This document shows, piece by piece, positions 8,389 to 54,470 of a DNA stretch of 54,470 nucleotides. Source of the DNA: an uncultured Lachnospiraceae bacterium (GTDB lineage Bacteria; Bacillota; Clostridia; TANB77; CAG-508). The position numbers were made by a program, and so were the translations under genes. The stretch is taken from assembly GCA_945917765.1 (NCBI GenBank), contig CAMEHU010000008.1:1-54470 (forward strand). Direction: 5' to 3'. A model generated the notes under the pieces. The model was not told the origin of the DNA. It searched no databases and was given only the letters and a program-made list of their open reading frames with translations. Each line of letters starts with the position of its first letter. Within the stretch, counting starts at the first letter, position 1.

Positions 8389-8417
8389 TTTATTTTTCTC
8401 CTTTTTAACAAACATAT

Positions 8418-8837
8418 TTATTTTCTTCTGAAATGTATTGGAGTTAAATTTTCTAAAATGCAGTCAACACAACCTTTTGTACTACTTGGTATAATCATAT
8501 TACATACATTATTAGAATATCTTTTACATTCACAACACCATTCTTTTTCTAATATCTCCCTTGCCTCTTCTACGGTCATTTTTTTAACATCTGTATCAAC
8601 TTCTTCAAATGTTTCTTTTTCAACATTTTCATTTCTTAAAAATTCTTTTAACTTTTTATAACATTTTGGACATAAATCCCATTGCTCCAAACCACAAGCT
8701 AGACTTCCCTGTTTATTAAACATAAATAATTGTAAGTTTGCTTGAACATTATCTTCCTTATCCCCACCAATAAAATTCTTTAATGGCTGTAATTCAAAAA
8801 GACTTCCACACACATCACATTTAAAAGCATTAGACAT
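8418..8837 (-). CDS. Hypothetical zinc-finger-like protein
   Basis: 139 residues with paired Cys motifs: CDVC (8-11) with CPKC (about 57-60), and a second set CCEC and CVDC near the C-terminus. This suggests two zinc-ribbon units linked by an acidic helix. No named family. It lies 2 nt from the adjacent zinc-ribbon gene. Confidence 0.6.
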   Translation of the reverse strand: MSNAFKCDVCGSLFELQPLKNFIGGDKEDNVQANLQLFMFNKQGSLACGLEQWDLCPKCYKKLKEFLRNENVEKETFEEVDTDVKKMTVEEAREILEKEWCCECKRYSNNVCNMIIPSSTKGCVDCILENLTPIHFRRK

Positions 8838-8839
8838 TT

Positions 8840-9097
8840 TTATTCCTCCAAAAATTTATTTGATAAACGAATCCTTTTTAGATCTTCCTTTGTTTTTAAC
8901 TTTGCTTGATAGTTACAACTTGCTTTCAAAGTCTTTTGGAATATTTCTTCCATACAGTCATAACACAAAGTAAAAATAACAGATTTCCTTTTGTTACTTA
9001 ACTGTAAATCATGCATTTCCTTTGTACGCATATATGGTTTCCCACATAATGTACATTTGCTTTCTTTGTCATGATTTACACGCATTCTAACAGGCAT
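8840..9097 (-). CDS. Small zinc-ribbon protein
   Basis: 85 residues with CTLC (about 16-19) and CYDC (about 45-48), a two-pair zinc ribbon, and a basic helical C-terminus. Probably nucleic-acid or protein binding; not assigned. Confidence 0.6.
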   Translation of the reverse strand: MPVRMRVNHDKESKCTLCGKPYMRTKEMHDLQLSNKRKSVIFTLCYDCMEEIFQKTLKASCNYQAKLKTKEDLKRIRLSNKFLEE

Positions 9098-9655: not shown

Positions 9656-9862
9656 CTATTTTAAATGTCTTCTCTTTTGAATGGAACGTAATCTATTACC
9701 AGTACTTTTATAGATTGCATCATTAACACTTAATTCTTTTCGTTTCTGTTCTAAACGTTTATTGTTTTCTTCTACCTCTTTCAAATATAATTCACAAGTA
9801 GAATGGCAAGTAATATGTCTATCTTTACAATGATAGCATACATGAAAGTTTTGTTTTGCCAT
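9656..9862 (-). CDS. Small Cys/His protein
   Basis: 68 residues. CYHCKDRHITCHSTC at about 9-23 is a compact Cys/His cluster found in many small Firmicutes phage proteins; a basic helix follows. Metal binding is inferred and function is unknown. Its ATG overlaps the stop of the RuvC-like gene. Confidence 0.6.
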   Translation of the reverse strand: MAKQNFHVCYHCKDRHITCHSTCELYLKEVEENNKRLEQKRKELSVNDAIYKSTGNRLRSIQKRRHLK

Positions 9863-10473
9863 TAATGTTCCTCCTTTAGTAATTGATTATTAGTAAATCC
9901 ATAAAGACTAATACAAATACTATCAGCAATATTATCATTATAAGTATAACGTTCCCCATTCTTTTCTATAATACCTTTTGATTTTCTTTTTCCTACATCA
10001 TAATTGATAATATATTTTTTATAGCCTTTTGAAACACACCAAAGTATTGTTGGCCATTTCTTTGGGTCAATACCATATTTATTTGATTTTCCTTTTGAAT
10101 TACCAACAACAGAAGATTTCCATGCACGAGTATCAACAGAATAGATAGGATAATCAAATGTAAAAGCTGTATCAACAATCAAAGCATTTAATGCCCCAAT
10201 AGATTTTATATAATCTATATTAATAAAACCTTGTGATTGTAAACGTATTCTTTCAATAATAACAATTACATCAGCATCATAGTCTTCTTTTAATAAATGA
10301 ACAGAACTAAAAATATCAAATAATCTTTTTTGTAACATTCCCCTGCGTTCAGAGTTGTTTTTACATTTTTCTAAATAAACGTGTTTTGCCATTTTTAATT
10401 TACCATTCATTGAAATAGAAATTCCAGTATCTTTATATGATTGGTCTATTCCAATTACTATTTTGTTTTTCAC
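9862..10473 (-). CDS. RuvC-like Holliday junction resolvase
   Basis: 203 residues of the RNase H-fold resolvase type. Motifs: IGIDQSYKDTGISI (first Asp about 9), VIVIIERIRL (Glu), SVDTRAWKSSVVG, and YNDNIADSICISLYG with the late Asp pair. It would resolve recombination or replication junctions before packaging. GTG at 10473 is the start, with GGAGG 7 nt upstream. It overlaps the upstream gene by 41 nt. Phage RuvC-like members are distant from bacterial RuvC. Confidence 0.8.
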   Translation of the reverse strand: MKNKIVIGIDQSYKDTGISISMNGKLKMAKHVYLEKCKNNSERRGMLQKRLFDIFSSVHLLKEDYDADVIVIIERIRLQSQGFINIDYIKSIGALNALIVDTAFTFDYPIYSVDTRAWKSSVVGNSKGKSNKYGIDPKKWPTILWCVSKGYKKYIINYDVGKRKSKGIIEKNGERYTYNDNIADSICISLYGFTNNQLLKEEH

Positions 10474-22151: not shown

Positions 22152-23084
22152 TTACCAATCTTCCTCTTCCTCATCAGAATCTTCCTCTTCCCAATCATCA
22201 TGGGCTTTATCATTTTCCTTCAACAGGTTAATATAATATTTCTCTGATTTTTTAGGAAGTGCCTCAATATCCCTTTCCTGACAAAGTTTATAAAGTTCCT
22301 TTGCAGACATTTCAGAGTAATCAACTTCTTCTTCATCTTCCTCTTCCCAATCATCACTATCAGAGTTTTCCTCATCATCCTCTTCCAATAAATTAATATA
22401 ATAGGAAGGTTTCATCTTAGGCTCTGCCTCAATTCCTCTATCTTCACAAAGATTATATAACTCCTTTGCAGACATTTCAGAATAATCAGTATCTTCCTCT
22501 TTATTCTTTTTTGACTTATTGGATTTCTTAGGTTCATCATCCTCATCTTCATCATCTTTATATTTTGAAGAATGTTCATCAGGATATGCCTTATCCAAAA
22601 TATCAAGGAATTTTTGTTTGCTAAACGGTTTTGCTTTTTCATTTCTAAACTTTTGTTTATCCATAGGAACAACAGAGAATGTTTTATTCTGTTGCTTTCC
22701 TGTTACACTGATAATAAAATCTCTATCTAACAATGTACCATAATTTTCATACATTGCAGCAATTGCTCCTAACGGGGAACAGTTATTCATGGGATACATC
22801 AAAATCTTAACTTCTTTTGATTCATAGTCCCAAACACTCCAAGCATATTGTGAACGTGTTCTAAGACCTTCTTCCTCACAATACATACAATTCTTACCAA
22901 ATATTTCCTGACAAGGAACATTAATTCCTGCTTCAAAATTATCATGGAAAACAACTTCAATTCCGTCTTCCATATCACTTAAGAAACGAATCCTCTTTTT
23001 TTCTCCTTCTTTGAAGAAAATAAACTTACTTTTGTTTTGCCCAGATTTTTGGGCATCTGCTTTAATCTTATCTAATAATCCCAT
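22152..23084 (-). CDS. SSB-like protein with two HeH/SAP repeats and acidic tail
   Basis: 310 residues from ATG 23084. Residues 20-165 form a beta-rich domain with CMYCEEE and a probable third Cys/His zinc ligand, like phage gp32-type SSBs. Two copies of YSEMSAKELY...C...I.A.PK...YYINLL occur at about 207-240 and 258-291; acidic stretches and a tip EEEEDW end it, as in SSB tails that recruit partners. It should coat replication intermediates. The same HeH motif occurs in the protein at 5879-6532. Confidence 0.75.
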   Translation of the reverse strand: MGLLDKIKADAQKSGQNKSKFIFFKEGEKKRIRFLSDMEDGIEVVFHDNFEAGINVPCQEIFGKNCMYCEEEGLRTRSQYAWSVWDYESKEVKILMYPMNNCSPLGAIAAMYENYGTLLDRDFIISVTGKQQNKTFSVVPMDKQKFRNEKAKPFSKQKFLDILDKAYPDEHSSKYKDDEDEDDEPKKSNKSKKNKEEDTDYSEMSAKELYNLCEDRGIEAEPKMKPSYYINLLEEDDEENSDSDDWEEEDEEEVDYSEMSAKELYKLCQERDIEALPKKSEKYYINLLKENDKAHDDWEEEDSDEEEEDW

Positions 23085-23226
23085 TTTCTTTTCCTTTCTT
23101 TGCAACTATCAGGCTACAGTCTACCGTCTTCGACACGCATACCATCTTACCTCTATTCCTGCCACCTTACCGCCTTTACAAATGTAAGTGCAACGATAAT
23201 ACTCTTTGCTTCTGTGTAAGTTTGAC
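23085..23226. other. Non-coding gap of unusual composition
   Basis: The 140 nt between primase and SSB-like genes are clearly more GC-rich than the rest of the phage and lack a convincing ORF. TTACA-TT-TGTAA and several short stems are possible on the minus strand. It may be a structured leader of the SSB mRNA, or a remnant of acquired DNA. Confidence 0.4.
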
Positions 23227-42424: not shown

Positions 42425-42525
42425 TTTTAATTTTCTCCTTTTCTTTACTCCATATTAAGGTTATGGTTACCTTCCTTTAAAAGGTTATTAAAGAACATTT
42501 GTTTTGTTCCATTCATCATAATTTT

Positions 42526-42553
42526 ATTATAACATATGTTATTGAAATGTCAA
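42526..42553 (-). promoter_or_regulatory. Capsid operon promoter with palindromic operator
   Basis: Minus-strand TTGACA, 16-bp spacer, TATAAT with TGT before the -10. The perfect palindrome ATAACATATGTTAT (42529-42542) overlaps the -10 and is identical at the TerL promoter (53091-53104). Confidence 0.75.
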
Positions 42554-42561
42554 TAGAAAAT

Positions 42562-43500
42562 TTAAAAATTTTTCAAATCATTTACAAATTTTTCAATTCT
42601 TTCATTCATATCCTCATCCCCTTCCCCTAAATACCAATCAGCAACAGCATCAATTATTTCTTCATCACTCATTGATATTATTGATTCAAAGGTACACATA
42701 CCATTAGGGTGGTCTAATGGTAATTTATCTTTTGGATATATTCCTGGTCCTAAACCATAATGGTCAACTGTCTCCCTATCTAAACATAATGTACAAACAT
42801 TATGTCCACCACTTGTTATCCATCTGTATGCATCAATAAATGGATTGTTAATTGTTGCTCTAACAAAACTTTCCTGATATGCATGGCTTATTGTTGTCCT
42901 AGCAAGTCTTTGTGCATTATAATCAACTTTCTTTCTTGAACCAGGAAACATATTACTCCAACTATATGATTTTCTTGCATTTGGATTTACATATCTTTCC
43001 AAGTCTTTTGAAATATCATACAATCCTTTATTTTTTAAAATTCCTTTTGAAATGATTTTACTTATTTCTATTTGTTTTGCTTTATTATCACCCCAAATAG
43101 CTTTGTTTAAATTCCATTTTCCTTGGTATAATGAACCACTCATTATTCTATTAACCATTTCTTTTTTAATAACAGTATTTGTTATATCAAAATTAAAACC
43201 TAAACTATTAACAAATTGATTGTTATTTTCAAAAACAATAGAAATCATTTTATCAACATTACCATTAATAATTTTTTCTGTTTTTGTATCAACATTTTTC
43301 ATATAACTATTTATTTCCTTTTGCAAAGATTTTAAATAATTTCTTCTTTCATTTGCTGATACATTATTTTTCCCTTTTAATTTTTTAACTTCTTTTTTTA
43401 TTTCATCAGAAGCTTCTTTATAAACACTTTTTATTTGTTTTTTTTGTTCTTTTACAATTTTTTCTCTTTCATTTTCAGAATATGTAAATGGGTTTGGCAT
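42562..43500 (-). CDS. Minor head protein, SPP1 gp7/MuF family
   Basis: 312 residues. Helical N-terminus; C-terminal MuF domain with ARTTISHAYQES and zinc-like CTLC ... LDHPNGMC (about 240-275). It associates with portal and may enter with DNA. Portal gene lies 4 nt upstream. Confidence 0.85.
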   Translation of the reverse strand: MPNPFTYSENEREKIVKEQKKQIKSVYKEASDEIKKEVKKLKGKNNVSANERRNYLKSLQKEINSYMKNVDTKTEKIINGNVDKMISIVFENNNQFVNSLGFNFDITNTVIKKEMVNRIMSGSLYQGKWNLNKAIWGDNKAKQIEISKIISKGILKNKGLYDISKDLERYVNPNARKSYSWSNMFPGSRKKVDYNAQRLARTTISHAYQESFVRATINNPFIDAYRWITSGGHNVCTLCLDRETVDHYGLGPGIYPKDKLPLDHPNGMCTFESIISMSDEEIIDAVADWYLGEGDEDMNERIEKFVNDLKNF

Positions 43501-43503
43501 TCA

Positions 43504-45036
43504 TTATTCCTCCTGATTTACATCCTCATTAATATCAACCAAATCATTTTCATTATAATCTATATAACTTTCTTCTAACATTTGTTTTTCTTTTTGAATT
43601 TGCAGCAATTCCTTATCTGCTTCCTCATCATTTAACTTTCTCCATTTTTTCAAATATGACTTTCTAGACATAACATTTGCCTCTACTTCTGTTATATCCA
43701 TTGTTTTCTCTTCTTGAACATCCTCAGGAAGTGGATAATTATTTTCTACAATAATATCAATTGGTATATTTGGTATAATATTTTTATCTGTATATTTTGA
43801 AATACAGTTCGGATATAAAATTGCACCTTCAATAATTGCATAAGCAATAAATTTCAAAGCAGGTTCCCATGATAGCATTTTTTCATCACAACGAACAGTA
43901 AGACCCCAATACAAAGCTTCAATTGTTTTACCTGATGTAATAACACCAGCCAATTGTTCACTATTTATATTTGGTACATCCAGTTCTGCAAACATTTCAT
44001 TTTCAATTCTATCAAGAGTTACTTTTAACGGATTTGAATAATGCATATTTGCTTCTAATACACCAATTTTTGCAGGTCTATCAACACTCTTTGTATCATC
44101 AGATTGTAAATCCCAATAAGAACCAGGACTTGTTGATAAATTACTTGTACTTTCTTGGGAAGCATCAATAGTATATTTTATTGGGTTCATATTTTTTCTT
44201 TCAGAATCAATATCCCCATTTGCTAACTTACTATATGTTTTTTCATACCTTATTAATGATGTTATTTCTGATTTTCCTTTTAAATCACCAGTCAAGCCAT
44301 CATTTAAAACTACAACTGCAGGAATATAATTAAATTTTATTTTCTTCTTAGGTGTCACAATCTCTTCAATATCACCAGTTCCAGAGTATATTACTTCTTC
44401 CACAGTTACAACATCATCTTTTTTTTCATAAATTTTTTTAAACCATCTTTGCTCTTTTAATGAATCAACTCCAGTCATTTCATAAAAAGAAGTAAACTTT
44501 GATAATTCATTATCCCTACCATTTAATTTTTCATAAGTAAACTCTAATGATGTTAAAAAGTTAATTGATATTCCAGTTTTCTCATTAAAGTTTAAAACAA
44601 TTGCAACTCTCTTACCAATAAAACAATCCTTTGCTGCTTTTAATATATTTCCATTGAAATTATTTTTTTCTAACACCTTATCAAGAAAATCTTGTATAAT
44701 TGCATTTTCTTCCTTATTTTCATCCGTTACATTATCAGGATTTACATTAAATGTTGGTGGATTTGAAAATAAAAATCTTGCCTCTTTATTCATAATCATA
44801 GCAGATTTTTTAAATCTTAAATTTGATGGTACATAATCACCATTTGAACCTTCCGGCACAAATTTATTACCAACTTCATATGCTCTATACAATGCTTTTA
44901 TTTCTTCTATTTCATTTGAATAATCACTTTTCCTTTCATTCCCCATATCATCAAACAAAAAATAAGGAATATTTCTAAAAGCAACAACATAATCTTCTTC
45001 AAATTCCTGATTTTGCATTTTTTCTTCCTCAGTCAT
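43504..45036 (-). CDS. Portal protein, SPP1 gp6 type
   Basis: 510 residues. Belongs to the SPP1-type portal family by order and motifs (IAVVVLNDGLTGDLKGKSEITSL, TVRCDEKMLSWEPALKFIAYAI). Forms the dodecameric channel for DNA. It starts after the recombinase gene with only a 9-nt gap, so it may share the recombinase promoter. Confidence 0.88.
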   Translation of the reverse strand: MTEEEKMQNQEFEEDYVVAFRNIPYFLFDDMGNERKSDYSNEIEEIKALYRAYEVGNKFVPEGSNGDYVPSNLRFKKSAMIMNKEARFLFSNPPTFNVNPDNVTDENKEENAIIQDFLDKVLEKNNFNGNILKAAKDCFIGKRVAIVLNFNEKTGISINFLTSLEFTYEKLNGRDNELSKFTSFYEMTGVDSLKEQRWFKKIYEKKDDVVTVEEVIYSGTGDIEEIVTPKKKIKFNYIPAVVVLNDGLTGDLKGKSEITSLIRYEKTYSKLANGDIDSERKNMNPIKYTIDASQESTSNLSTSPGSYWDLQSDDTKSVDRPAKIGVLEANMHYSNPLKVTLDRIENEMFAELDVPNINSEQLAGVITSGKTIEALYWGLTVRCDEKMLSWEPALKFIAYAIIEGAILYPNCISKYTDKNIIPNIPIDIIVENNYPLPEDVQEEKTMDITEVEANVMSRKSYLKKWRKLNDEEADKELLQIQKEKQMLEESYIDYNENDLVDINEDVNQEE

Positions 45037-45045
45037 TTTAACCTC

Positions 45046-46071
45046 CTATAATTTTGAATGTTCAAATCTTGCTTTCTGTTTATTTAAAGTTGAATATCCA
45101 ACAGTTGTTTTAGGGTTAGAATGTCCCATTAAATACTGTACTGTCAATAAATCTGAATGATTTAACATATTACAACAAAATGTATTTCTATACCTATGAA
45201 CAGTTGAACTATCAACACCTGCATTCTTTGCTAAATTTTTCATTATCCTTCTTAACGATTCTGTTTTCATTTTATCAGCAACAAATCTTCCACATTCTAA
45301 TCTTCTTCTTTCATTACAGAACAAATATTTTGAATGTATTCCTTTCATTTCTCTATCTATTAAATATTGTTCTAAATAATAAATACAAGTATCATTTAAA
45401 AATACTTCCCTTTGTTTTGCACCTTTACCATGTATTAAAATTTGTTTTTGAGTAAAATCAACATCATCCAATTTTATTTCACAAACTTCTTCATTTCTAC
45501 AACCCGTGGTAAGTAACAAATCTAATAGTGCTCTCTGCTTTGTTGATTTACAGGAATCATAAAGTTTTGCTACTTCAACATCATTATATGGTTTTTTTAC
45601 TTTTATTTCTTCTTTTACTCTTTTTATTTTTTTAACAGGATTCTTTTGTATATATTCCTCTTCGACAAGCCATTCAAAAAATACTGATAATTTTTTTCTT
45701 TTATTGTTAAGTGAAACACTACAATTACCTCTTTCTTCCATTTTAATAAAATACATTCTTATTGTATTAACATTAACATTTAACAAATCAACGTCAAACA
45801 TTGTAATAAAATTTTTTAACGTTTGTAAATAACTATCTATTGTTTTTTGTGATTTTCCTTCTATTTTCTTACATGATAAAAACATATTTATTAATTTTAT
45901 ATTTCTTTCCGAATAAACAGAAGGTAATTGTTTTTGTTCTTCAATAAATTCAACGTTATAATTTTCCATTTCACAAATCAAAACATTTTTTAAATATCTA
46001 ATTTCATCCTCTTCCAATTTGTTAGACATTTTTAAAATAATATTTTTGAACAACCTATCTTTTGCATCCAT
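45046..46071 (-). CDS. Tyrosine recombinase, probable fibre invertase
   Basis: 341 residues from ATG 46071 (GGAGG 8 nt upstream; a TTG start 5 codons earlier overlaps the SD). All catalytic residues are present: Arg192 (TTGCRNEE), Lys216 (GKGAK), His292 and Arg295 (VHRYRNTF), His317 (GHSNP) and Tyr326 (TVGYS). SAM-like core-binding domain at about 55-150. XerC/D-like. It lies 105 nt from an inverted-repeat pair in the next fibre gene. With no repressor seen, inversion of fibre cassettes is the favoured role; integration remains possible. Confidence 0.9.
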   Translation of the reverse strand: MDAKDRLFKNIILKMSNKLEEDEIRYLKNVLICEMENYNVEFIEEQKQLPSVYSERNIKLINMFLSCKKIEGKSQKTIDSYLQTLKNFITMFDVDLLNVNVNTIRMYFIKMEERGNCSVSLNNKRKKLSVFFEWLVEEEYIQKNPVKKIKRVKEEIKVKKPYNDVEVAKLYDSCKSTKQRALLDLLLTTGCRNEEVCEIKLDDVDFTQKQILIHGKGAKQREVFLNDTCIYYLEQYLIDREMKGIHSKYLFCNERRRLECGRFVADKMKTESLRRIMKNLAKNAGVDSSTVHRYRNTFCCNMLNHSDLLTVQYLMGHSNPKTTVGYSTLNKQKARFEHSKL

Positions 46072-46114
46072 AGCATTTACCTCCAAATAGAAATTTATTT
46101 ATTTTTATAAATTG

Positions 46115-46143
46115 ATTATAACACATAATTTCTATTTTGTAAA
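46115..46143 (-). promoter_or_regulatory. Recombinase promoter
   Basis: Minus-strand TTTACA, 17-bp spacer, TATAAT with TGT before the -10. It lies outside the inverted repeats, so inversion would not change recombinase transcription. Confidence 0.8.
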
Positions 46144-46176
46144 TGGTATATTTTAAAAAGATTTCATTATTGCATT

Positions 46177-46192
46177 TTAAACAACAGTTTAA
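46177..46192 (+). repeat. Inverted repeat site A (recombination site)
   Basis: TTAAACAACAGTTTAA, identical to the site at 46665-46680 in opposite orientation. TTAAAC and GTTTAA arms flank an asymmetric AACA centre, as expected for a tyrosine recombinase site. It overlaps the stop codon of the fibre gene. Confidence 0.75.
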
Positions 46193-46836
46193 TATCCATA
46201 TAACTGGAACATTGCAAGTTCACCGCAATTTGCAGAAGAAGGTGTAATGGTTTGACTATTTATATACAAACGATAATAGATATATGAAGCATCATTGTTC
46301 AATGCTTGTTTTTCAATATCATTAGAACTTGTTATGTTTGCCGTTAAATCAGTCCATTTCGCCCCATCATTTGAACCTTGAATTTTATAGCTAATAGAAG
46401 AAATATATGATTTAACCCACTTCACATCAAACTTTATAGCTTGTACCGCTTTTGTGAATTTATACATTACCCACTGATTTGTAATACTTCCTGCACCGGT
46501 ATGCAACCATACAGTAGAATCATTATTGTCAAAAGCATAATATGCAGGATAATTACTGTGAGCAGAACTTGCACTAGCATTACCACTAGGAGTTGTATTG
46601 CTTGTCATAGTTGGTATTAACGGATTATTACCCATTATATTTTTAAGAATATTTTGTACACTCGTTAAACTGTTGTTTAACTCCTCAATTTTATTGTTTA
46701 ACACATAAACTGTATTCGCATCAGCGGCACCTTTACCTGCCTGATTTGTAAGAAAATTATTGATAAGAGGGACAGCATCCCCAACTGCCCCAGCTATCTT
46801 TGATAATATTCCATTTTTAAAAATATTAACACTCAT
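46189..46836 (-). CDS. Tail-fibre protein with discoidin-like C-terminus (invertible)
   Basis: 215 residues. Helical N-terminus (1-65) with a LNNSL codon run (53-57) encoded inside an inverted repeat, then a C-terminal F5/8-type-C-like galactose-binding domain (about 75-212: YPAYYAFDNNDSTVWLH, YKFTKAVQAIKFDVKWV, YKIQGSNDGAKWTDL). Such domains bind sugars, fitting a receptor-binding tip. Inversion of the 472-bp segment would fuse the N-terminus to Ile-Ser-Ile-stop, leaving a 60-residue product. Confidence 0.8.
   Translation of the reverse strand: MSVNIFKNGILSKIAGAVGDAVPLINNFLTNQAGKGAADANTVYVLNNKIEELNNSLTSVQNILKNIMGNNPLIPTMTSNTTPSGNASASSAHSNYPAYYAFDNNDSTVWLHTGAGSITNQWVMYKFTKAVQAIKFDVKWVKSYISSISYKIQGSNDGAKWTDLTANITSSNDIEKQALNNDASYIYYRLYINSQTITPSSANCGELAMFQLYGY
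46665..46680 (-). repeat. Inverted repeat site B (recombination site)
   Basis: On the minus strand TTAAACAACAGTTTAA, identical to site A. It encodes L-N-N-S-L in the fibre gene, so strand exchange here keeps the reading frame. Confidence 0.75.
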
Positions 46837-46840
46837 AATT

Positions 46841-46951
46841 TTACTCCTTGTTTTCTTCTAACCATAATTCAACCCTTGCTCTCCAAAATGTTGGAACTTC
46901 ATCAATTGTAATAATACCTGCTTTTACTTTTCTTCCATAAAATGCTGCCAT
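46841..46951 (-). CDS. XkdX-family small tail protein
   Basis: 36 residues: YGRKVKAGIITIDEVPTFWR, typical of XkdX (PF09693). AGGAGG upstream. Small genes of this type lie beside tail-fibre genes in Firmicutes phages. It abuts the fibre gene start and the stop at 46953. Confidence 0.8.
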   Translation of the reverse strand: MAAFYGRKVKAGIITIDEVPTFWRARVELWLEENKE

Positions 46952-46952
46952 A

Positions 46953-47354
46953 TTATATACCTCCTGCAATATCACTAACTGCTGTTCCTAAATCAGAAAT
47001 TGCTGCATCATGTACTTCTGTTGTTTCTTTTAATGTAGCAATTTCATTCATCAACTCTTTTGTTTTTTCCTCTAATAATTCAACCTCAGTTTTCACTCTA
47101 AGATTAATTATTGTATTAACAGTTCCATCATTATTAAAACTTGATGTTTCATTTACAAAAACAAGATTTTCATAATTCGCAATCACTAAACCACTTGAGT
47201 TTTTAATTGTTACTGTTTTTAAATTATCATTTGTTAATTCAGAAATACATTCAATTAATTCATTATAATTTCCAAATACAACACCAATACTTGATAAGGA
47301 AGAACCTTCCTTTATACTTATCTCTTTCAAATTTTTTAAAATTAAAGTATCCAT
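46953..47354 (-). CDS. Tail-associated protein near XkdX
   Basis: 133 residues, beta-rich N-terminal part (1-90), then coiled coil (VELLEEKTKELMNEIATLKE) and a hydrophobic Gly end. This form commonly precedes XkdX in Firmicutes siphophages. Its start is 103 nt beyond repeat C; it lies outside the 17-bp pair. Confidence 0.65.
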   Translation of the reverse strand: MDTLILKNLKEISIKEGSSLSSIGVVFGNYNELIECISELTNDNLKTVTIKNSSGLVIANYENLVFVNETSSFNNDGTVNTIINLRVKTEVELLEEKTKELMNEIATLKETTEVHDAAISDLGTAVSDIAGGI

Positions 47355-47457
47355 AAAAAATCTCCTTTCAATAAAAAATATGTTAATATTAAATTTTACA
47401 TTTTATTAAATTACTAAATATAAAATACATAAAATTTGTTACTACAAACACATTACT

Positions 47458-47474
47458 AATAAACAGCAGTTTAA
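47458..47474 (+). repeat. Inverted repeat site C (recombination site)
   Basis: AATAAACAGCAGTTTAA, 17 bp, identical to site D (48111-48127) in opposite orientation. Arms ATAAAC/GTTTAA flank the asymmetric centre AGCA. Encodes I-N-S-S-L in frame with the silent cassette that follows. Confidence 0.85.
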
Positions 47475-47764
47475 ATTACTCAACAGAAGAAAATATAATC
47501 GGTACTTGGATAGACGGAAAACCAATATATCGTAAGATGGTAAATATATCTACTGATATAATAATGCCAATTGGTTCTTGGAAATCTTCAGGCATTATAA
47601 TCGATAACCTTGATACTTTGGTATATGCCGATTGCAAAGAATATCCAAATACTTTCGGTTTTAAATACGCTAATAACGTATTGCAAATTATAACAGGCAT
47701 ATCTAGTTTTGTGTTAAGAGAAAAAAATTATATTGTAGTTGAATATACTAAGACTACTGATTAA
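47475..47764 (+). pseudogene. Silent, inverted tail-fibre C-terminal cassette
   Basis: A plus-strand open frame of 96 codons plus stop following repeat C, without SD, start or promoter. It begins NYSTEENIIGTWIDGKPIYR, the well-known YSTxE...GTWIDGKPIYRK start of tail-fibre C-terminal domains, then a beta-rich section ending in VEYTKTTD. All other phage genes are on the minus strand. Inversion between sites C and D would join it in frame to the N-terminal 94 residues of the 47821-48393 gene. Confidence 0.9.
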
Positions 47765-47820
47765 TGTGAAAAATAATTATTTAACAGCAGAATTGTTTCC
47801 CACGAATCAGCATATCAAAC
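47765..47820. other. 56-bp spacer between convergent cassettes
   Basis: Lies at the exact centre of the invertible segment (290 + 56 + 290 bp). Contains AACAGCAG, a partial match to the recombination site, and AATAATTATT. No gene. Confidence 0.5.
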
Positions 47821-48393
47821 TTACTTCTTTAATCCATAAGCAACAAAAGTAGATGTTTTACAACTTATTACATCTCCTTTTTTGGCGTATCCATGTGATG
47901 TCGAAATATATAATGTTGACGGAGATATTGATGCTGAATTTTTTGCTCCGACATAAGTGTTATTTACCTTTACTCGGTAGTCTGTGCTAATAGTCGACCC
48001 ATAATACTCGCAGTATAACGACTCAAAATAGATATCTTCTGTTGCCACCCAATCTGTAATAGCACCACTTTTAACGATATTTGTATAATCTGGAAAGGCA
48101 GTATTTTCACTTAAACTGCTGTTTATTTCATTAATCTGTGTTTGAAAACTACTTGTTTCTTCATCATCAGTTATATTAACAACTGCATCTTCTGGAATTT
48201 GCCCTAATGCAATAGCTTCCTCAATAGCAGCTTTCGTTCCAGTATACATTGGTGTTACAACAACACCCCCTGTAATTTGTTCCCCGTTTGCTGCATGAGC
48301 TGTTGCCCCTTGCAAAAGGTTTTCTGATGAAACAGAATCCCCTGTTAAATCAATTAATGTCTCATCTCCTAAAACAACTTTACTTACAGCCAT
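47821..48393 (-). CDS. Tail-fibre protein, currently expressed C-terminus
   Basis: 190 residues. N-terminal part 1-94 is paralogous to the 48403-48975 gene (KVVLGDETLIDLTGDSV with KVIFGSETLIDLTNDTV) and includes site D at I90-N-S-S-L94. The last 96 residues (SENTAFPDYTN...) are beta-rich and unlike the silent cassette. It is probably a receptor-binding fibre whose tip can be exchanged by inversion. Confidence 0.85.
   Translation of the reverse strand: MAVSKVVLGDETLIDLTGDSVSSENLLQGATAHAANGEQITGGVVVTPMYTGTKAAIEEAIALGQIPEDAVVNITDDEETSSFQTQINEINSSLSENTAFPDYTNIVKSGAITDWVATEDIYFESLYCEYYGSTISTDYRVKVNNTYVGAKNSASISPSTLYISTSHGYAKKGDVISCKTSTFVAYGLKK
48111..48127 (-). repeat. Inverted repeat site D (recombination site)
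   Basis: On the minus strand AATAAACAGCAGTTTAA, identical to site C. Located at codons 90-94 of the fibre gene; the reading frame is conserved on both sides. Confidence 0.85.
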
Positions 48394-48402
48394 TTAATTC
48401 AC

Positions 48403-48975
48403 CTACCCTATCGTAGTTGTAATACCACCTGCTGAATTTTCAGAATCAACTCTTGGTATTGCATTTACAGTAACCTGTGACAAATAATCATAACCTTCAT
48501 CAGGTAAAATTGTCTGTGGTGATAAACTAGGAGTAACTGTTTTAGATTGTGCAGAAATTTCTTCACCACCATAAGTACCTGTTACCCCAAGAACTTCAAT
48601 TCCTGCCTTAATATTACCAGGAATAATTTTTGCCTTTTCTACTGAATCAATATCTACAGTTCCAGACCCATCATGGAAACCTAACGGTACGGTATAAGGT
48701 GTCTCTAAATTACTAATTTTACCTGCAACAGCACCATTGTTAGGCATTGTACCAGTCACCTTTGAGCCCCTGACATATGCAGTTTTATTTAACAATAGTT
48801 CAGCTGCCGAAGCAGTTGCATCCTGTGTATCTGCATCATTTGTATTAGTACCTGTTATAATTGCACCAGATTTATCATGTGCTGTAAGTCCTTTTGCAAG
48901 TTTATCTGCTTGCACTGTATCATTTGTTAAATCAATTAAAGTTTCACTACCAAATATAACTTTATTTACTGCCAT
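48403..48975 (-). CDS. Tail-fibre-like protein, paralogue
   Basis: 190 residues. N-terminus similar to the invertible fibre gene, then repeats of AAELLLNKTAYVRGSKVTG and LETPYTVPLGFHDGSGTVDI type found in tail-fibre shafts. It carries no inverted-repeat site, so it would be constant. Confidence 0.75.
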   Translation of the reverse strand: MAVNKVIFGSETLIDLTNDTVQADKLAKGLTAHDKSGAIITGTNTNDADTQDATASAAELLLNKTAYVRGSKVTGTMPNNGAVAGKISNLETPYTVPLGFHDGSGTVDIDSVEKAKIIPGNIKAGIEVLGVTGTYGGEEISAQSKTVTPSLSPQTILPDEGYDYLSQVTVNAIPRVDSENSAGGITTTIG

Positions 48976-48976
48976 T

Positions 48977-49228
48977 TCAATTTCCTCCTATTACAACTGT
49001 TTGTCCATTAGATAAATTATCAAACTGATATTTTGGTATTTCTAAAACAACAACATCCTTAGACATTGATTTATTCCTTGTTTCTAACACTTTTTGACTA
49101 ATTGACGGAGTTACATTATATTCCCCTGTATAATATGGTAATCTTTCTGATGTACCACCCTCTGAAACATCAATATCAATAATTTCAGACATAAAAAAAT
49201 CAGAACTCATATCAATAATATTACTCAT
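48977..49228 (-). CDS. Small tail-fibre-associated protein
   Basis: 83 residues from ATG 49228 (AAGGTGT upstream). Mixed beta; GTSERLPYYTGEYNVTP and VVVLEIPK are of a type next to fibre genes. Overlaps the previous gene by 8 nt. Confidence 0.6.
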   Translation of the reverse strand: MSNIIDMSSDFFMSEIIDIDVSEGGTSERLPYYTGEYNVTPSISQKVLETRNKSMSKDVVVLEIPKYQFDNLSNGQTVVIGGN

Positions 49229-49532
49229 GGATAACACCTTCTTTCAATATATTATCCAAATTTATCTTTTTTATATTACTTGCATATGCTTTCTTATTTG
49301 AATCAAGAAATCTTACCTGTGTTTCAACATTACTACCATAGAAATTTAATGTATCTTCCTGGGATAATTCTATTGTCAAAGTTTTGTTTTCATTATTAAC
49401 AATAATATCATCTTTACCAAAAGTCTTTTCATACATCAAAGTTTTTAATGTAACCCAAATTTGTAACATACCATTCAAATCTAAGTTAGAATTTACATTA
49501 TAAATTAATGTTGGGGTAGTTCCTCTATACAA
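49221..49532 (-). CDS. Firmicutes phage protein (YRGTTPT family type)
   Basis: 103 residues from TTG 49532 (AAGGAGG 8 nt upstream). N-terminal YRGTTPTLIYNVNSNLDL and later SQEDTLNFYGSNVETQVRFLD are typical of a widespread small structural-type protein of gut siphophages; precise role unknown. Confidence 0.7.
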   Translation of the reverse strand: MYRGTTPTLIYNVNSNLDLNGMLQIWVTLKTLMYEKTFGKDDIIVNNENKTLTIELSQEDTLNFYGSNVETQVRFLDSNKKAYASNIKKINLDNILKEGVIHE

Positions 49533-49545
49533 AATAACCACCTCC

Positions 49546-50613
49546 TTAAAATTGACTTACAGAGCTCACCTTACCATTATTATTGATTGCCCAGTATTTT
49601 GTTTCCCTACTATCAATATGAACAAACGTATTGTACCTTATAATTCCATTTATTCCTAATGATTGTGCATACTTAGCAACCTCTTGTGGCGTTTTCCCTT
49701 TTACAACAATATCAAATGCCATACCTTTTAAATGGTATGAATTTTTAGCACCACCACATTTTGTATTCCAACTAACTGTTCTATAAGCAGAATTTATTGT
49801 AACAGGAACTCCAAAATGGTCCCTTATTTTTTGCAATTTATCTTTTACAAAATCAACATCAATTAATATTTTATCAGATCCATCCTTGCATCTAAATTCT
49901 TTTACTTTAAAGTTTTTAGATATACTTTGACTTCCTTCTTTTACTAATGAAAAAGTTGAAATTCCATTTTTATTATCTACAGAATTTTCATCCTCATAAC
50001 AAATATTAAAATCAACATTTCCTTCAATTCCATCAATAATTCCATAGGATGTATACTGCCAACCCCATAAATTATTTTTTATCACAGGTTTCTTTAAATC
50101 ATTTGGATTTTGTGTAAACAACATATTTGCTTTACTTGGATATCTTGCAATCCAAAACGGACAATCAAGTTCATTATAATACTTACTAAATTCTGTATTA
50201 TAAAAACTAAGTCCTGTATATACTCCAAATTTATACCCATTACTTTCTATCACATTTTGATATTCTTTTACAATATCTATCAATGTATGACCAAGTCCAT
50301 GTTGGGTTTCATCCTCTACATCCATCCAAATTTCTTTTTTAAAACTTTTCATTTTATCAATATTATTTTTCTTAATTATATCAACAACTGCATTTGCATC
50401 AACTCTTGCCTTTTCCCTTGTTAACGCATAAGTATAATTATATACACTAAATGGTATATTATTAACAATACAACCAGTTGAATTACTTAAGAATTGTTTA
50501 TCAATTGTTAAATCTTTTCTTATAATTTTTAAAATAGCAAATGAAACACCATTACTTTTAACTTTTTTCCAATCAATTACTCCCTGATAAGAACTTACAT
50601 CAATTCCCTTCAT
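49546..50613 (-). CDS. Endolysin, GH25 muramidase plus M15 peptidase
   Basis: 355 residues, two domains. GH25 at about 1-205 with GIDVSSYQG and the catalytic pair Asp98/Glu100 (WMDVEDE). M15-type carboxypeptidase at about 233-340: SAYRT, H294-xxxxxx-D301 (YHLKGMAFDI) and His332 (FVHID). It cleaves both glycan and peptide parts of the wall. No signal peptide, so release needs the holin. Two activities in one chain are somewhat unusual. Confidence 0.92.
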   Translation of the reverse strand: MKGIDVSSYQGVIDWKKVKSNGVSFAILKIIRKDLTIDKQFLSNSTGCIVNNIPFSVYNYTYALTREKARVDANAVVDIIKKNNIDKMKSFKKEIWMDVEDETQHGLGHTLIDIVKEYQNVIESNGYKFGVYTGLSFYNTEFSKYYNELDCPFWIARYPSKANMLFTQNPNDLKKPVIKNNLWGWQYTSYGIIDGIEGNVDFNICYEDENSVDNKNGISTFSLVKEGSQSISKNFKVKEFRCKDGSDKILIDVDFVKDKLQKIRDHFGVPVTINSAYRTVSWNTKCGGAKNSYHLKGMAFDIVVKGKTPQEVAKYAQSLGINGIIRYNTFVHIDSRETKYWAINNNGKVSSVSQF

Positions 50614-50650
50614 TTACTCACCTCCATTTTATAAACGTGGAAAAGAGGAA

Positions 50651-51010
50651 CTAGTCCTCTTTCACGCTTTCATTTGATACAAGTGTATTTATAACAGCTT
50701 TATTATGTTTTACTTCATTCACAATTCCCTCCACAATAGTATCAATTTGGTCATAAGAAAGATTAATATGTAACTTTTCATTCATAATATTCATAACATA
50801 GTTCATTACATATTCCTTCTTTTCCTGCCATTGTTCAACTGTATAAATTTGTTCTGCACACCTAACAGCAATTTTTACATATTCAAATAATTTACTTAAT
50901 TCCTCTGAACTTATCTTTGATTTGATAAATGGAACAACATATGCTGTTACTAATGCACCACAAATTGAAACAATTGCTAAAATAATCTTTACAAACAATT
51001 CACTATTCAT
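50651..51010 (-). CDS. LL-H-type phage holin
   Basis: 119 residues: one N-terminal transmembrane segment (about 5-29) then a helical cytoplasmic part; VRCAEQIYTV..EQWQEKKEYV is typical of Phage_holin_6_1. It forms the membrane lesion for the endolysin; that gene lies 37 nt downstream. Confidence 0.82.
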   Translation of the reverse strand: MNSELFVKIILAIVSICGALVTAYVVPFIKSKISSEELSKLFEYVKIAVRCAEQIYTVEQWQEKKEYVMNYVMNIMNEKLHINLSYDQIDTIVEGIVNEVKHNKAVINTLVSNESVKED

Positions 51011-51295
51011 TTATCCCTCCATAGACTCATTTGAGTCTTCTATAACATCATTTTTTTCCTGTAATCTTATAATTTCTTCTTGTTTCTTTCCAAAATAACT
51101 TTTTACAAAATAGGGAACAATAACAGCAATAATACTTGTTACTAATGTAATACTTAATGTCTCTAAATGAATTGCATCATTTTTTATTATATCAGTAACA
51201 TAAAATACACTTAACCAAAGCATAACAAAATATTGCCATCTATCCAACCAATTCTTACTATATTCTTTTTTAGTTAGATTCTTTTTTACTTTCAT
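51011..51295 (-). CDS. Small membrane protein, possible second holin
   Basis: 94 residues: basic N-terminus (1-17), two hydrophobic segments (about 22-37 and 46-67), then a charged coiled tail. Between a small gene and the LL-H-type holin; an antiholin or second holin role is likely by position. Confidence 0.65.
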   Translation of the reverse strand: MKVKKNLTKKEYSKNWLDRWQYFVMLWLSVFYVTDIIKNDAIHLETLSITLVTSIIAVIVPYFVKSYFGKKQEEIIRLQEKNDVIEDSNESMEG

Positions 51296-51527
51296 TTATA
51301 ACACCATACTTTACAGCTTTTTCTTTAGGTACAACAGACATACCAGATTTTAATTTCATAATAACATCACCAGGTAAAGCAGTTAACGTTCTTGTTGGTG
51401 CATAAATAGTAACACTAACAACTTTTCTATCATCATCCAAATTAACCTTTGCTCTACCCCTTGCTGTTTCATCATTAAACCAAACAGGCATTTTGTCTTT
51501 TCCTAAAACAAATTTCAATGAATCCAT
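51270..51527 (-). CDS. Hypothetical protein
   Basis: 85 residues from ATG 51527 (AGGAGGTGTG before it). Beta-rich with RTLTALPGDVIMKLKSGMSV. Overlaps the next gene by 26 nt. No family recognised. Confidence 0.6.
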   Translation of the reverse strand: MDSLKFVLGKDKMPVWFNDETARGRAKVNLDDDRKVVSVTIYAPTRTLTALPGDVIMKLKSGMSVVPKEKAVKYGVINESKKESN

Positions 51528-51539
51528 AATCACACCTCC

Positions 51540-51710
51540 TTACCTATAAGTTATTCCTGAACTTGTTTTTCTTACAAATTTTACTTTTTCAACTTTTTCT
51601 TTTTTATTCAATTTCTTCCTAATCATAGACATAACATCATCCCATTCTTGATTCAAATCTGTTTGGGACATATTAAATAGTCTATTCCTATATTCCTTAT
51701 CAACACACAT
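51540..51710 (-). CDS. Small helical basic protein
   Basis: 56 residues, missed by length filters. Starts two nt after the TerL stop (TAAAATG) with AGAGGTG upstream. Helical, Lys-rich in the middle (KKLNKKEKVEKVKFV). Confidence 0.65.
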   Translation of the reverse strand: MCVDKEYRNRLFNMSQTDLNQEWDDVMSMIRKKLNKKEKVEKVKFVRKTSSGITYR

Positions 51711-51711
51711 T

Positions 51712-53058
51712 TTAAACACCTCTATAACTATTATTTTTACGTTTTTTCAAATCAGCAACAGTATAGTCATCTATTGCATACCATATTGCTGAAAATGTAT
51801 GGGGGTCTATATTAAAACGGGAATAGTCAATTGTTCCATTCCTATTTTTCTTGTAAGTTAAATCTTTTAACTCCTTAATTGTATTTACACAATCACTGCT
51901 ACAAATAATTCTTTTAAATCTTTTACATTTTTTTGTATTTGCAATTCTACTTCCCTCAGATTTTTTATCAGCTTGTTTTTTACAAGGAAACATTTTAAAT
52001 CCTTGTTGTCTAAAATAACGAATTGTTTTTGGTTCTGCATTATCAGCTTTAATTTCTTCTTCCTTTATATTTTCATCCCATTCTACAAGAGCAATTGCAG
52101 TTTTATCATCCGTCATTTTATTTTTGTAATATTCCTTGTAAATATACAACCATTTATTTTTATCATCAATTGCAACCTTTATTACTGCATTGTATGAAGT
52201 TTCAAAACCAAAGTCCATACCAATTCTCTTCCATTCCTCACCTAATTCTGCAACATAGTGATTTACTAACTTAGAATTCATAACCTCAAATTGTGGAAGA
52301 ACACGTAAACCAGTTGCACCAAATCTACCTAATCTAGCAACAATCCATAATGCTCGGTCATATTCTTTTAAATCATCCAAACGTTGGATATAATCACGAG
52401 GCAGAAATGGGTTATCATCACAAGTAGAATGGTGATAATAAACTTTTCCTTTTATTAATGTTTTTTTCTGATAAAGAAGTTCATCACTTACAATTCTTTT
52501 TACTGTTCCATCATCCTTTATTTTTTCAAAAAATTGCTGATATACCCAATTGAATTTACCAACAGGGTTGCAACTCAAAATAAAGTGCATAGAAGTTTTA
52601 AACGTTCTGATACGGCCTAATATTTCAAGGTATGCATCATAAGTAACTTCACTACATTCCTCTATCCATACAATGGAAACACCATTTAATGATTTTAATT
52701 TTTCAGTACTGTCCATACCTTTGAAAATTATTCTGGAACCATTCGGAAACTTAAACTCCAATGGACTATTTTTAAAACAAACCTTTGTAGGATGTTTTCT
52801 GACTCCATTATCTGCTAATAAATGCATATCCTCTAATACTTGTTTTATCAAGTCAAATGTAGATTCTTTATGGGTATCATAAACATCACGAAATACACAG
52901 GCTTTTCTTTTTTCGGAAAATAACTTCAAAATAATCTTTTGTACAATTGCATGGGATTTTCCACTACCATAAGATCCTATGGATAAATAAGTTTCATAGT
53001 TCCAGTCAAAAATAAAATCATCAAAAGCAGGACTAATGTTCATAGTTGCTTTTGGCAT
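51712..53058 (-). CDS. terL: Large terminase subunit
   Basis: 448 residues. Walker A GSYGSGKS (28-35), Walker B-type SIVWIEECSE (about 124-133), coupling FILSCNPV, and a nuclease domain from about 250 (GMDFGFETSYNAV). Translocates DNA into proheads and cuts it. Promoter with operator lies upstream. Confidence 0.95.
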   Translation of the reverse strand: MPKATMNISPAFDDFIFDWNYETYLSIGSYGSGKSHAIVQKIILKLFSEKRKACVFRDVYDTHKESTFDLIKQVLEDMHLLADNGVRKHPTKVCFKNSPLEFKFPNGSRIIFKGMDSTEKLKSLNGVSIVWIEECSEVTYDAYLEILGRIRTFKTSMHFILSCNPVGKFNWVYQQFFEKIKDDGTVKRIVSDELLYQKKTLIKGKVYYHHSTCDDNPFLPRDYIQRLDDLKEYDRALWIVARLGRFGATGLRVLPQFEVMNSKLVNHYVAELGEEWKRIGMDFGFETSYNAVIKVAIDDKNKWLYIYKEYYKNKMTDDKTAIALVEWDENIKEEEIKADNAEPKTIRYFRQQGFKMFPCKKQADKKSEGSRIANTKKCKRFKRIICSSDCVNTIKELKDLTYKKNRNGTIDYSRFNIDPHTFSAIWYAIDDYTVADLKKRKNNSYRGV

Positions 53059-53087
53059 ATTTTTACTTCCTTTTACCTTTTTCTTTT

Positions 53088-53116
53088 ATTATAACATATG
53101 TTATGCAATTTGTAAA
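53088..53116 (-). promoter_or_regulatory. TerL promoter with palindromic operator
   Basis: Minus-strand TTTACA, 17-bp spacer, TATAAT with TGT before it. Perfect palindrome ATAACATATGTTAT at 53091-53104. Confidence 0.75.
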
Positions 53117-53130
53117 TAGTAAACTATATT

Positions 53131-53466
53131 TTAAATTCCTAAATTTAAAAATATTTTATTAATCTTGTGCCATTGTATTGCAAACCAGTCAATTGTAGTT
53201 TCATCCTGGCCAAATTCATTTGGATGTTGCCAGTTATTATCCAATCCACTTTCAATCATAAATGCATGGATAATTTCATGACGCATAATTTCTGCTTCAT
53301 ATTGTTTCCAATTTTTAAAACCAGATTCTTCATTATACTTTGTAATATAAATCTTACATTGTGTTTTGTCAACAAAACCATCTTTCCCTTTTATTCTTGG
53401 TTCTTCTTTCTCATCTACAAAAACAATTTCATAAGTAGTACCAAGAACAGTGATAAATTTACTCAT
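53131..53466 (-). CDS. HExxH metalloprotease-like protein
   Basis: 111 residues from ATG 53466. HEIIH at 63-67 follows AEIMR, and a helix with QWHKINKIF ends it, resembling short SprT/metallopeptidase-like phage proteins. Overlaps TerS by 8 nt. Target unknown. Confidence 0.7.
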   Translation of the reverse strand: MSKFITVLGTTYEIVFVDEKEEPRIKGKDGFVDKTQCKIYITKYNEESGFKNWKQYEAEIMRHEIIHAFMIESGLDNNWQHPNEFGQDETTIDWFAIQWHKINKIFLNLGI

Positions 53467-54073
53467 CTTCGTCTTCATCCTCCCAATCTTCAGGCCAATA
53501 ATCTAAATCTTTTTCATCAGATTCTTCTTCCTTTGTTTGTTCCTGTTTTTTCGGTTGGAAATTAACTTCCTGATTTACATTATCACCAAGGCTATCTTCT
53601 TTCGGACCACGAACAATGGTAATATTGATATTACTATCTTCTTCATCCAATTCCAGAACCTTGTCACGATTCCGTTTCCACTGGTCATGCTTTCTATTAT
53701 TCAACCATGCCATACAAGCAGTAACATTTGGTGCAACTTCTCTCGTTGTTGTTTCTTTCAACACTTCAAATGTTTCCCCATTAATAATCTTCTTTCCTAA
53801 TGTTACTTTTATTTCCTTTGTGGTATAACCTAATGCTGCTTTCAATAATGCATTTTCAACTTTGTAATCTACCAGTTCTTTACCAGTATTTAATGCCTGT
53901 GCAATTTCGGGATAGCGTTTCCTCCATTTTGATAAAGTATAACGTTCAATTCCCATTCTATCTGCTATTTCATTTAACAGATATCCATCTCTTGCCCATG
54001 CCTCAATTAATATCAAACCATCGTCTGTTAACCAATAGTCAACTTTGCTATCTCTTTCTTTTCCCAATGTCAT
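53459..54073 (-). CDS. terS: Small terminase subunit
   Basis: 204 residues. Helix-turn-helix at about 30-60 (LLNEIADRMGIERYTLSKWR), helical oligomerisation region, and an acidic C-terminal tail (DEDEDE). Recognises packaging DNA for TerL. It has a strong AAAGGAGG SD. Confidence 0.88.
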   Translation of the reverse strand: MTLGKERDSKVDYWLTDDGLILIEAWARDGYLLNEIADRMGIERYTLSKWRKRYPEIAQALNTGKELVDYKVENALLKAALGYTTKEIKVTLGKKIINGETFEVLKETTTREVAPNVTACMAWLNNRKHDQWKRNRDKVLELDEEDSNINITIVRGPKEDSLGDNVNQEVNFQPKKQEQTKEEESDEKDLDYWPEDWEDEDEDE

Positions 54074-54378
54074 TTCCTCCTTTCATTCCCGGCTAATAGT
54101 CTTTCAAATTTCTGGAAGTAAAAAATTTGGTTAAGACTTTTTCAAATACACAACAAAAAAGTTATTTTGGAGAAAAAAATATGCCACTTTAGAGACGTTG
54201 TATTTGCCTCATTTAAGCGGTTACGTTTCAACATGAGTATTTCATCATCCTTTTGATTACAAGCGATTTAAGAGGCATCTGGCGCATCCTCAAAGGCATC
54301 TGCATCCTATTCAAAAGCGGAGGGCCTTATATATATATGAAACTAGGATTTCTAGGACTTAAGTGGTCCATTTTTAAA
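54074..54378. other. Non-coding leader before small terminase
   Basis: No gene seen. Contains GAGGCATCTGGCGCATCC and AAAGGCATCTGCATCC (near-repeat at about 54272 and 54293) and a run TATATATATA. Might hold the packaging (pac/cos) site, since it is beside TerS. Confidence 0.4.
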
Positions 54379-54432
54379 ATAACACGCATTATGTAACTCC
54401 CGTTATGATAACACACGTTATTGAATACACAA
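54379..54432 (-). promoter_or_regulatory. Three tandem ATAAC-N4-GTTAT sites with a promoter
   Basis: ATAACACGCATTAT (54379-54392), GTAACTCCCGTTAT (54393-54406) and ATAACACACGTTAT (54408-54421) are contiguous 14-bp palindromes. A minus-strand TTGTGT (54427-54432), 16 bp, TATCAT (54405-54410) promoter overlaps them; it would drive small terminase. Confidence 0.6.
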
Positions 54433-54440
54433 TAAAAAAT

Positions 54441-54461
54441 GCACGTGTTATTTTTACGTGC
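54441..54461. repeat. GCACGT hairpin at the right end
   Basis: GCACGT and ACGTGC form a 6-bp stem around a T-rich loop; the partial AATGCACGTGTTATT repeats the operator half-site. Confidence 0.4.
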
Positions 54462-54470
54462 ATAATTTAT

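Follow-up and report, generated by a model that had tools for sequence, protein, structure and literature searches.

Does the inverted repeat that links a phage fibre gene to a start-less open frame on the opposite strand mark a DNA switch, and, if so, which enzyme would turn it? We addressed this question in a window of 54,470 bases that is one whole contig (G000:C8) within a 77-contig, 1.82-Mb assembly. PHROG and Pfam matches revealed a siphovirus-like gene set (terminase, holin, endolysin, portal, major head protein, tape measure, and Dit) together with genes for replication and recombination (DNA polymerase III alpha, primase, and a UvsX-like recombinase). A first-pass annotation of this DNA had described the phage as otherwise coded entirely on the minus strand; the family matches fit that description, but the input to the PHROGs scan was 40 window proteins from minus-strand ORFs only. 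No reverse transcriptase, the mark of a diversity-generating retroelement, was found among these 40 proteins, and no exact direct terminal repeat of 15 to 300 bp was found at the contig ends. The phage carries two different Holliday-junction-resolvase-like genes (7449–7925 and 9862–10473). A further 16-bp inverted repeat, TCCAAAATAACTTTTT, with arms 3 kb apart at 51089–51104 and 54156–54171, is unrelated to the fibre-site motif.

The gene in question, fibre gene B, is a minus-strand ORF of 190 amino acids (47821–48393) that consists of a constant base or scaffold of 94 residues (codons 1–94, 48112–48393, minus strand) and, in the expressed position, a tip of 96 residues plus stop (47821–48111, minus strand). 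At the junction lies site B-right, AATAAACAGCAGTTTAA (48111–48127, minus strand), which is read in frame as I-N-S-S-L, and a perfect inverted copy, site B-left (47458–47474, plus strand), has the same codon phase. As first annotated, the repeat is 17 bp long with 0 mismatches and its right copy occupies codons 90–94 (I90–L94) of the fibre gene; identity stops at both ends of the 17 bp. The left copy does open a plus-strand frame that ends at 47764, reading INSSL, 96 codons, and a stop, while the start given for its tip, 47475, had to be corrected to 47474 because the tip's first codon begins with the final base of the repeat. The silent tip (47474–47764, plus strand), which starts NYSTEENIIGTWIDGKPIYR, thus also has 96 residues plus a stop, and frames and lengths agree with the proposed exchange of 96 residues for 96 in frame through I-N-S-S-L. 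We predict that the 670-bp segment 47458–48127 is very probably an invertible switch by which a recombinase encoded at 45046–46071 swaps 96-residue tips on the 94-residue base. The recombinase would recombine the two inverted 17-bp B sites, the segment 47458–48127 would flip, and the silent tip, formerly on the opposite strand, would replace the active tip on the fixed base of gene B.

If the silent tip is to serve in this way, is it a protein domain, and is it silent? The annotated lack of a start was borne out: the open frame reaches back to 47393, ATG, GTG, and TTG are absent from there to the site, and the first internal start, ATG at 47537, yields a 75-codon ORF. Promoter-like consensus matches between 46000 and 48500 numbered 17, with 16.5 expected. 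A Pfam scan of the silent frame gave 0 families, and the protein search that had been proposed as a check of the silent tip gave 639 matches at E<=0.01; in the best 120 of these 639, its own ORF among them, the sequence YSTEE..GTWIDGKPIYR is attached to many different N-terminal parts. The only near-copy among the matches listed is P0022 (88%), itself a bare 75-codon ORF. The predicted structure is an all-beta domain with a mean pLDDT of 90, and the silent tip is a real domain; a fold search with the model gave no decisive match. That the silent tip belongs to a large family whose members are attached to N-terminal parts of many unrelated kinds is also what one would expect if ordinary homologous or illegitimate phage recombination had shuffled the tips, leaving the opposite-strand tip as a dead remnant with no inversion at all. 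Tip mosaicism is common in phages, and only one orientation of the window locus is known. A dead remnant, however, is hard to square with a frame that is open throughout and whose codon-usage score is 0.12 per codon, versus −0.53 to −0.17 for the other five frames of the same DNA. Both B tips (0.12 for the silent and 0.08 for the active one) score below all 34 phage training genes (0.29–0.63), and therefore codon usage lends no strong support; the low scores fit imported or fast-changing DNA. Between the silent-tip stop and the active-tip stop lies a partial site copy, TTTAACAGCAGAATTG (47780–47795, plus strand), which is perhaps a decayed third site, though AACAGCAG occurs nine times in the window and chance is possible.

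Repeat length by itself is weak evidence in an AT-rich window. When the whole window was shuffled with an order-2 Markov model, an inverted repeat of at least 17 bp with arms 150–1500 apart appeared in 7 of 200 shuffles and a second inverted pair of at least 16 bp in 3 of 200; order-1 shuffles in which the arms could lie farther apart reached at least 17 bp in 4 of 60. For the 3.9-kb region 45037–48975, at least 17 bp arose in 4 of 2000 shuffles, and none of the 2000 had, like the real sequence, two pairs of at least 16 bp. The site motif AAACARCAGTTTAA has 4 copies in the 1.82-Mb assembly, all at the A and B sites, and the reversed control has 0.

The second inverted pair (16 bp) of the B-site motif, which the first-pass annotation overlooked, lies in gene A. 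This gene (46189–46836, minus strand) encodes a 57-residue base ending LNNSL and a tip with an F5/8 type C (discoidin) domain (PF00754, 2.1e-11, by Pfam; phrog_17517, tail protein, 9.9e-19, by PHROGs). Site A-left, TTAAACAACAGTTTAA (46177–46192, plus strand), overlaps the gene A stop codon, and its inverted copy, site A-right (46665–46680, minus strand), is read in the L-N-N-S-L frame of the gene. A 133-aa protein encoded between the two segments (46953–47354, minus strand) matched neither a PHROG nor a Pfam family at E<=0.01. The B site is near-symmetric (TAAA-CAGCAG-TTTA), which would suit a tyrosine recombinase acting on short arms and a 6-bp spacer. The spacers of the A sites (CAACAG) and the B sites (CAGCAG) are one base apart, and therefore within-gene inversion would be favoured. 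Read from its left site, segment A gives LNNSLISI*, and a full alternative tip is absent, so that a flip of segment A alone would cut gene A short and leave an off state or an empty slot. Such a truncation, with the gene A stop codon lying inside A-left, would also be expected if the locus were mainly an on/off switch, segment A alternating between a full-length and a truncated fibre and the silent tip of segment B being seldom used. We consider that most improbable, given that segment B holds two open, equal-length, in-phase tips and that tips of the silent kind are found on base B in 7 of 73 relatives examined (BLAST similarity).

Which enzyme would invert the segments? Adjoining the gene A site pair is a gene that the first-pass annotation also overlooked, encoding a tyrosine recombinase, the predicted invertase (45046–46071, minus strand), with a PF00589 match (2e-32) and a SAM-like core-binding domain. 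The gene was listed as ORF 45046–46086 from a TTG; its relatives begin at the ATG at 46071. In an alignment of the window recombinase with 10 relatives (47–93% identical), R, K, H-x-x-R, H, and Y are invariant, and we take R197, K221/K224, H297/R300, H322, and Y331 (numbered from the TTG start) to have the catalytic roles. XerA, XerD, and XerH are among the sequence relatives of known structure. Residues 1–64 matched no Pfam family at E<=0.01, and an arm-binding domain was not found. Upstream of the gene and outside both segments is a promoter-like TTTACA-17-TATAAT with TG (11/12; 46115–46143, minus strand), a consensus match only, of chance-level frequency.

The best PHROGs families for this recombinase bear the name 'integrase', as would be expected of a prophage integrase that lies near the fibre genes by chance while a host recombinase, or none, uses the repeats. 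Other recombinases are at hand, the assembly having 13 PF00589 matches, of which this one is the sole match on the contig, and 15 matches to PF00239 (serine recombinase), none of them on the contig. Besides the tyrosine recombinase gene, the only lysogeny name that the PHROGs scan gave among the 40 minus-strand proteins, and the sole repressor name, came from an endonuclease-VII-like protein (22152–23105), whose third-ranked match, a weak one (E 1.9e-4), was to an 'Arc-like repressor' family. A chance neighbour that is an integrase is very hard to credit, since no other lysogeny gene was named among those 40 proteins, the gene sits between a fibre gene and the portal gene, the Pfam matches of its product include no arm-binding domain, and relatives of the enzyme adjoin tip arrays, as described below; the site motif is absent elsewhere in the assembly, and therefore no host attachment copy of the motif exists there. 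Under the switch reading, the same recombinase would serve both genes A and B.

We then compared 85 protein relatives of fibre B, the window's own P0141 counted. The base is kept in 74 of them and is full length in 73, where it is 80–100% identical (median 92%). Across these 73 full-length bases, the frequency of the majority residue averages 0.92 in columns 1–90 and 0.17 in columns 95–120, and at N-S-S-L, columns 91–94, it is 0.99, 0.71, 0.96, and 0.95. The junction of the 74 base carriers reads NSSL in 49, NNSL in 16, and otherwise in 9. Clustering of their tips gives 68 groups at a threshold of 90% identity, 56 at 50%, and 29 when any similarity is accepted. Of the 131 pairs with bases at least 98% identical, 126 have tips between which no similarity could be detected. 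The base is identical to that of the window over 90 residues in ten proteins, P0141 counted, and each of the ten has a different tip, no two of these tips being 75% or more alike; in this set, P0145 and P0153 carry an F5/8 tip like that of gene A, and P0147 and P0152 a tip of the silent kind. F5/8 tips occur on base B in 10 of 74 proteins (Pfam), and the silent-kind tips on base B are about 30–65% identical to the silent tip of the window, partly over short stretches, and are not near-copies of it. Tips that are 100% identical stand on bases 84–90% identical in the pairs P0192/P0197, P0148/P0177, and P0165/P0191. Ordinary recombination is further disfavoured by the position of the break, which falls at the same 4 codons in 74 base-B proteins, those codons being the 17-bp repeat, and by a repeat that is inverted, paired twice, in frame, and beside a recombinase gene.

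Tips are also found on other bases. P0142 joins the gene A base (52/53 identical) to the active tip of gene B (86/96 identical), and therefore tips have moved between genes A and B; in P0217, the active tip of gene B stands on a third base. Occasional exchange between the genes is thus implied by P0142 and by the F5/8 tips that base B carries, and rarer A x B cross-inversions may have carried the tips. In a token model of cross-inversions among the four sites, base A with the active B tip was reached in 3 steps and base B with the F5/8 tip in 2 or 3. P0183, which is without base B, has a tip behind a short unrelated leader, and eight relatives without base B have only an N-terminal ETLIDLT module in common. 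The ETLIDLT...TAHxxxGxxITG module at the start of fibre B also opens the product of the gene at 48403–48975, the two being 56% identical over 43 residues; the module is likely a common virion-attachment domain.

Searches for related DNA returned little. Megablast of 42500–54470 against phages found no relative; the fibre matched two loci in IMG/VR, alike solely over the N-terminal 40–60 residues, and was found in genome samples in its own genome only (1/390, 1/385, and 1/391, overlapping samples). DNA of a phage with base B was not found in IMG/VR, in phage records, or in the three overlapping genome samples, and an IMG/VR search with the recombinase alone gave 23 pattern matches with no relative among them.

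We therefore turned to more distant phages, 80 viral contigs with recombinases about 30% identical (the best 80 of 95); the sample codes of many of these contigs presumably denote the rumen. An array beside a related recombinase was observed in 8 of the 80, many of which are short, and in L134, giving 9 distinct contigs. Each array has one site in a longer gene, which is taken as the active fibre, and 3–10 others leading open frames with little or nothing upstream; short frames are few, for example, 5 residues in L092 and 30 in L094. The ratio of plus-strand to minus-strand sites is 10:1 in L094, 7:3 in L134 and L092, 6:1 in L077, 3:1 in L073 and L079, 3:2 in L086, and 2:2 in L084 and L025. 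The listed sites read N-[S/D]-[S/K/N] in L094, L134, L077, L092, L073, L079, and L086, LNGR in L084, and ADL in L025, with one codon phase within each of the nine loci. The tip at L073:1319 is silent and the same tip is active in L092 (92% identical); likewise, the tip at L094:3374 is silent and the same tip is active in L134 (84% identical). Tips are common to phages with NDS and NSS sites (L077/L134, 84–86%). Ordered arrays of open, in-phase silent tips are difficult to reconcile with chance shuffling and dead remnants, and, taking this together with the evidence from the window and its protein relatives, we hold ordinary recombination to be an improbable explanation of the locus. In L134, three consecutive minus-strand sites lie at 8403–8968, two of them behind the active gene, and these may be spent or reserve tips oriented like the expressed gene.

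The arrays were identified by two scans. An 11-mer family scan gave counts of at least 3, on both strands, in 33 of 80 loci, yet also in 60 of 400 shuffles; because such counts are common in shuffles, weight was given to counts of at least 4 (1/400 shuffles). A count of 4 was reached in 12 of 80 loci, with open in-phase tips in L073, L077, L079, L084, L092, and L094. L025 (count 3) was positive when read in the correct orientation, and L055 (count 3) was rejected on reading its sites. L028 was set aside (another motif there has short frames), as were L037 (sites within 230 bp) and, on site positions alone, L038, L064, L098, and L101. The other scan, of coding phase, picked out 19 of 141 loci, versus 0 of 141 shuffles; L069 was set aside after its sites were read, and L029, L098, and L127 for sites in long frames or unequal lengths, and the remaining 15 flagged loci correspond to the 9 distinct contigs, some of which had been fetched twice.

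The window recombinase is only about 30% identical to the array-linked enzymes of these distant relatives. In a recombinase tree of 88 rows (76 of 81 viral rows, without L075, L098, L099, L103, and L104, plus 11 proteins and the window), the window groups with eight of the relatives P0001–P0011 and falls outside the main array clade. The rows linked to arrays were clustered in the tree (0 of 500 label shuffles as low), a clustering that near-copies favour, and the array-linked enzymes are not one clade (6 changes; one origin in 0% of bootstrap trees). Inverted repeats around the recombinase gene were observed in L086 (5936–5955/7172–7191), L089 (5931–5945/7169–7183), L106 (5899–5912/7149–7162), L107 (5902–5917/7146–7161), and both L076 and L117 (5572–5592/7443–7463). 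Because these repeats flank the gene, the recombinase gene may lie on an invertible segment of its own in several relatives. L086 has tip cassettes on either side of the recombinase gene, and the one in L107, a contig of a Candidatus Lachnoclostridium pullistercoris MAG, is surrounded at the contig end by a perfect inverted repeat of 111 bp (5261–5371/7301–7411). The recombinases of L127 and L128 (contigs of 274–288 kb) are 46–49% identical to the enzyme of the L092 array; the coding-phase scan found repeats inside one long frame only in L127 and flagged nothing in L128.

Are the products of genes A and B tail or head fibres? A homologue of the gene 48403–48975 product (65% over 188 residues) in the Oscillospiraceae phage NatCom_27610 sits between 'tail protein' genes and a holin, and the fibre of L092 comes after a baseplate gene. 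The active gene of L084 has a weak match to 'head fiber protein' (E 0.0015). Both products are probably virion fibres of the tail; 'tail' is here an inferred term, because the fibre genes of the window sit between the lysis genes and the portal gene and not behind the tape measure and Dit.

How does the locus compare with known systems? In phages Mu, P1, and p15B, the serine recombinases Gin, Cin, and Min invert DNA and thereby swap fibre C-termini in frame, Min with multiple tips, and in the shufflon of plasmid R64, the tyrosine recombinase Rci and inverted sites swap the C-terminal tips of a pilus protein. The window locus resembles the former in the in-frame swap of a fibre C-terminus but has no serine recombinase (PF00239) on its contig; it resembles R64, by description, in its tyrosine recombinase, inverted sites, and C-terminal tips, whereas R64 acts on a plasmid pilus protein. 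Fibre inversion by Gin, Cin, and Min is described in Mavrich et al. 2018 (PMC6109161), which reports the Rin shufflon of Bifidobacterium prophages; Rin has been reported in Eggerthella lenta prophages as well (PMC8778435). Like Rin, the locus has a tyrosine recombinase that the phage itself encodes, made up of core-binding and catalytic domains without an arm-binding one, a constant N-terminal base with variable C-terminal tips of ~95–100 residues and a short junction repeat, and silent tips beside the active gene. It is unlike Rin in its 17-bp site AATAAACAGCAGTTTAA (pair A: TTAAACAACAGTTTAA) in place of the 11-bp rix TTCCCTAACCC, which has 0 matches in the window, in its two fibre genes with a common motif and a relative that carries a tip on the base of the other gene, in its one silent tip rather than several (3–10 only in distant relatives), and in the lack of a separate integrase on this contig. 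Because rix is absent, there is one silent tip, and the likeness is by description only, we do not class the locus as Rin. In the haloarchaeal viruses phiCh1, phiH1, and ChaoS9, inversion alters the expressed tail fibre, and a tyrosine recombinase (there Int1) likewise lies by the fibre genes (PMC6471424); there, Int1 sits between two opposed fibre genes inside the invertible region, whereas here the recombinase gene is not part of either segment, and what is silent is a tip alone, with no base attached. A literature search of titles and abstract openings, with subscription papers and preprints outside its scope, brought up Rin and the haloviruses and found no description of this phage group, of tips common to two fibre genes, or of the arrays in distant relatives. 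As far as this literature goes, what is new is that each of the two fibre genes has its own pair of sites and one tip is found on either base, that bases and tips evolve independently of each other across a large set, and that more distant phages store as many as ten silent tips in an array.

Taken together, the earlier suggestion of an invertible tip is strengthened by the recombinase gene, the second site pair, and tip replacement exactly at the repeat in relatives, as well as by silent-kind tips on base B, the active B tip on base A, and tips of distant relatives that are active in one phage and silent in another. The best reading of these sequences is that the locus would be a two-gene tip-exchange system worked by a tyrosine invertase, similar to the Rin shufflon with other sites. 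If the fibres bind receptors, inversion would give a phage population whose members differ in host or receptor choice. More tentatively, and with somewhat more doubt than belief, we hypothesize that the 14–16-bp coding site (N-[S/N/D]-S-[L/F]) is a universal in-frame adaptor for pooled tips, which a phage tyrosine recombinase would move by local inversion, between fibre genes of one phage, and, through recombination of co-infecting phages, across the group, so that base and tip evolve independently in an integron-like manner.

If this is correct, phage-range prediction from one assembled fibre gene would be unreliable, because an assembly shows one state only. Tip and base could be read apart in sequence data, the site would predict which tips are interchangeable, and array-bearing relatives would give the number of stored tips, making the upkeep of tip diversity testable. 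The common site would let two fibre genes and many phages use one stock of tips, and phages of this group would need no mutation, but a single step, to change a surface fibre.
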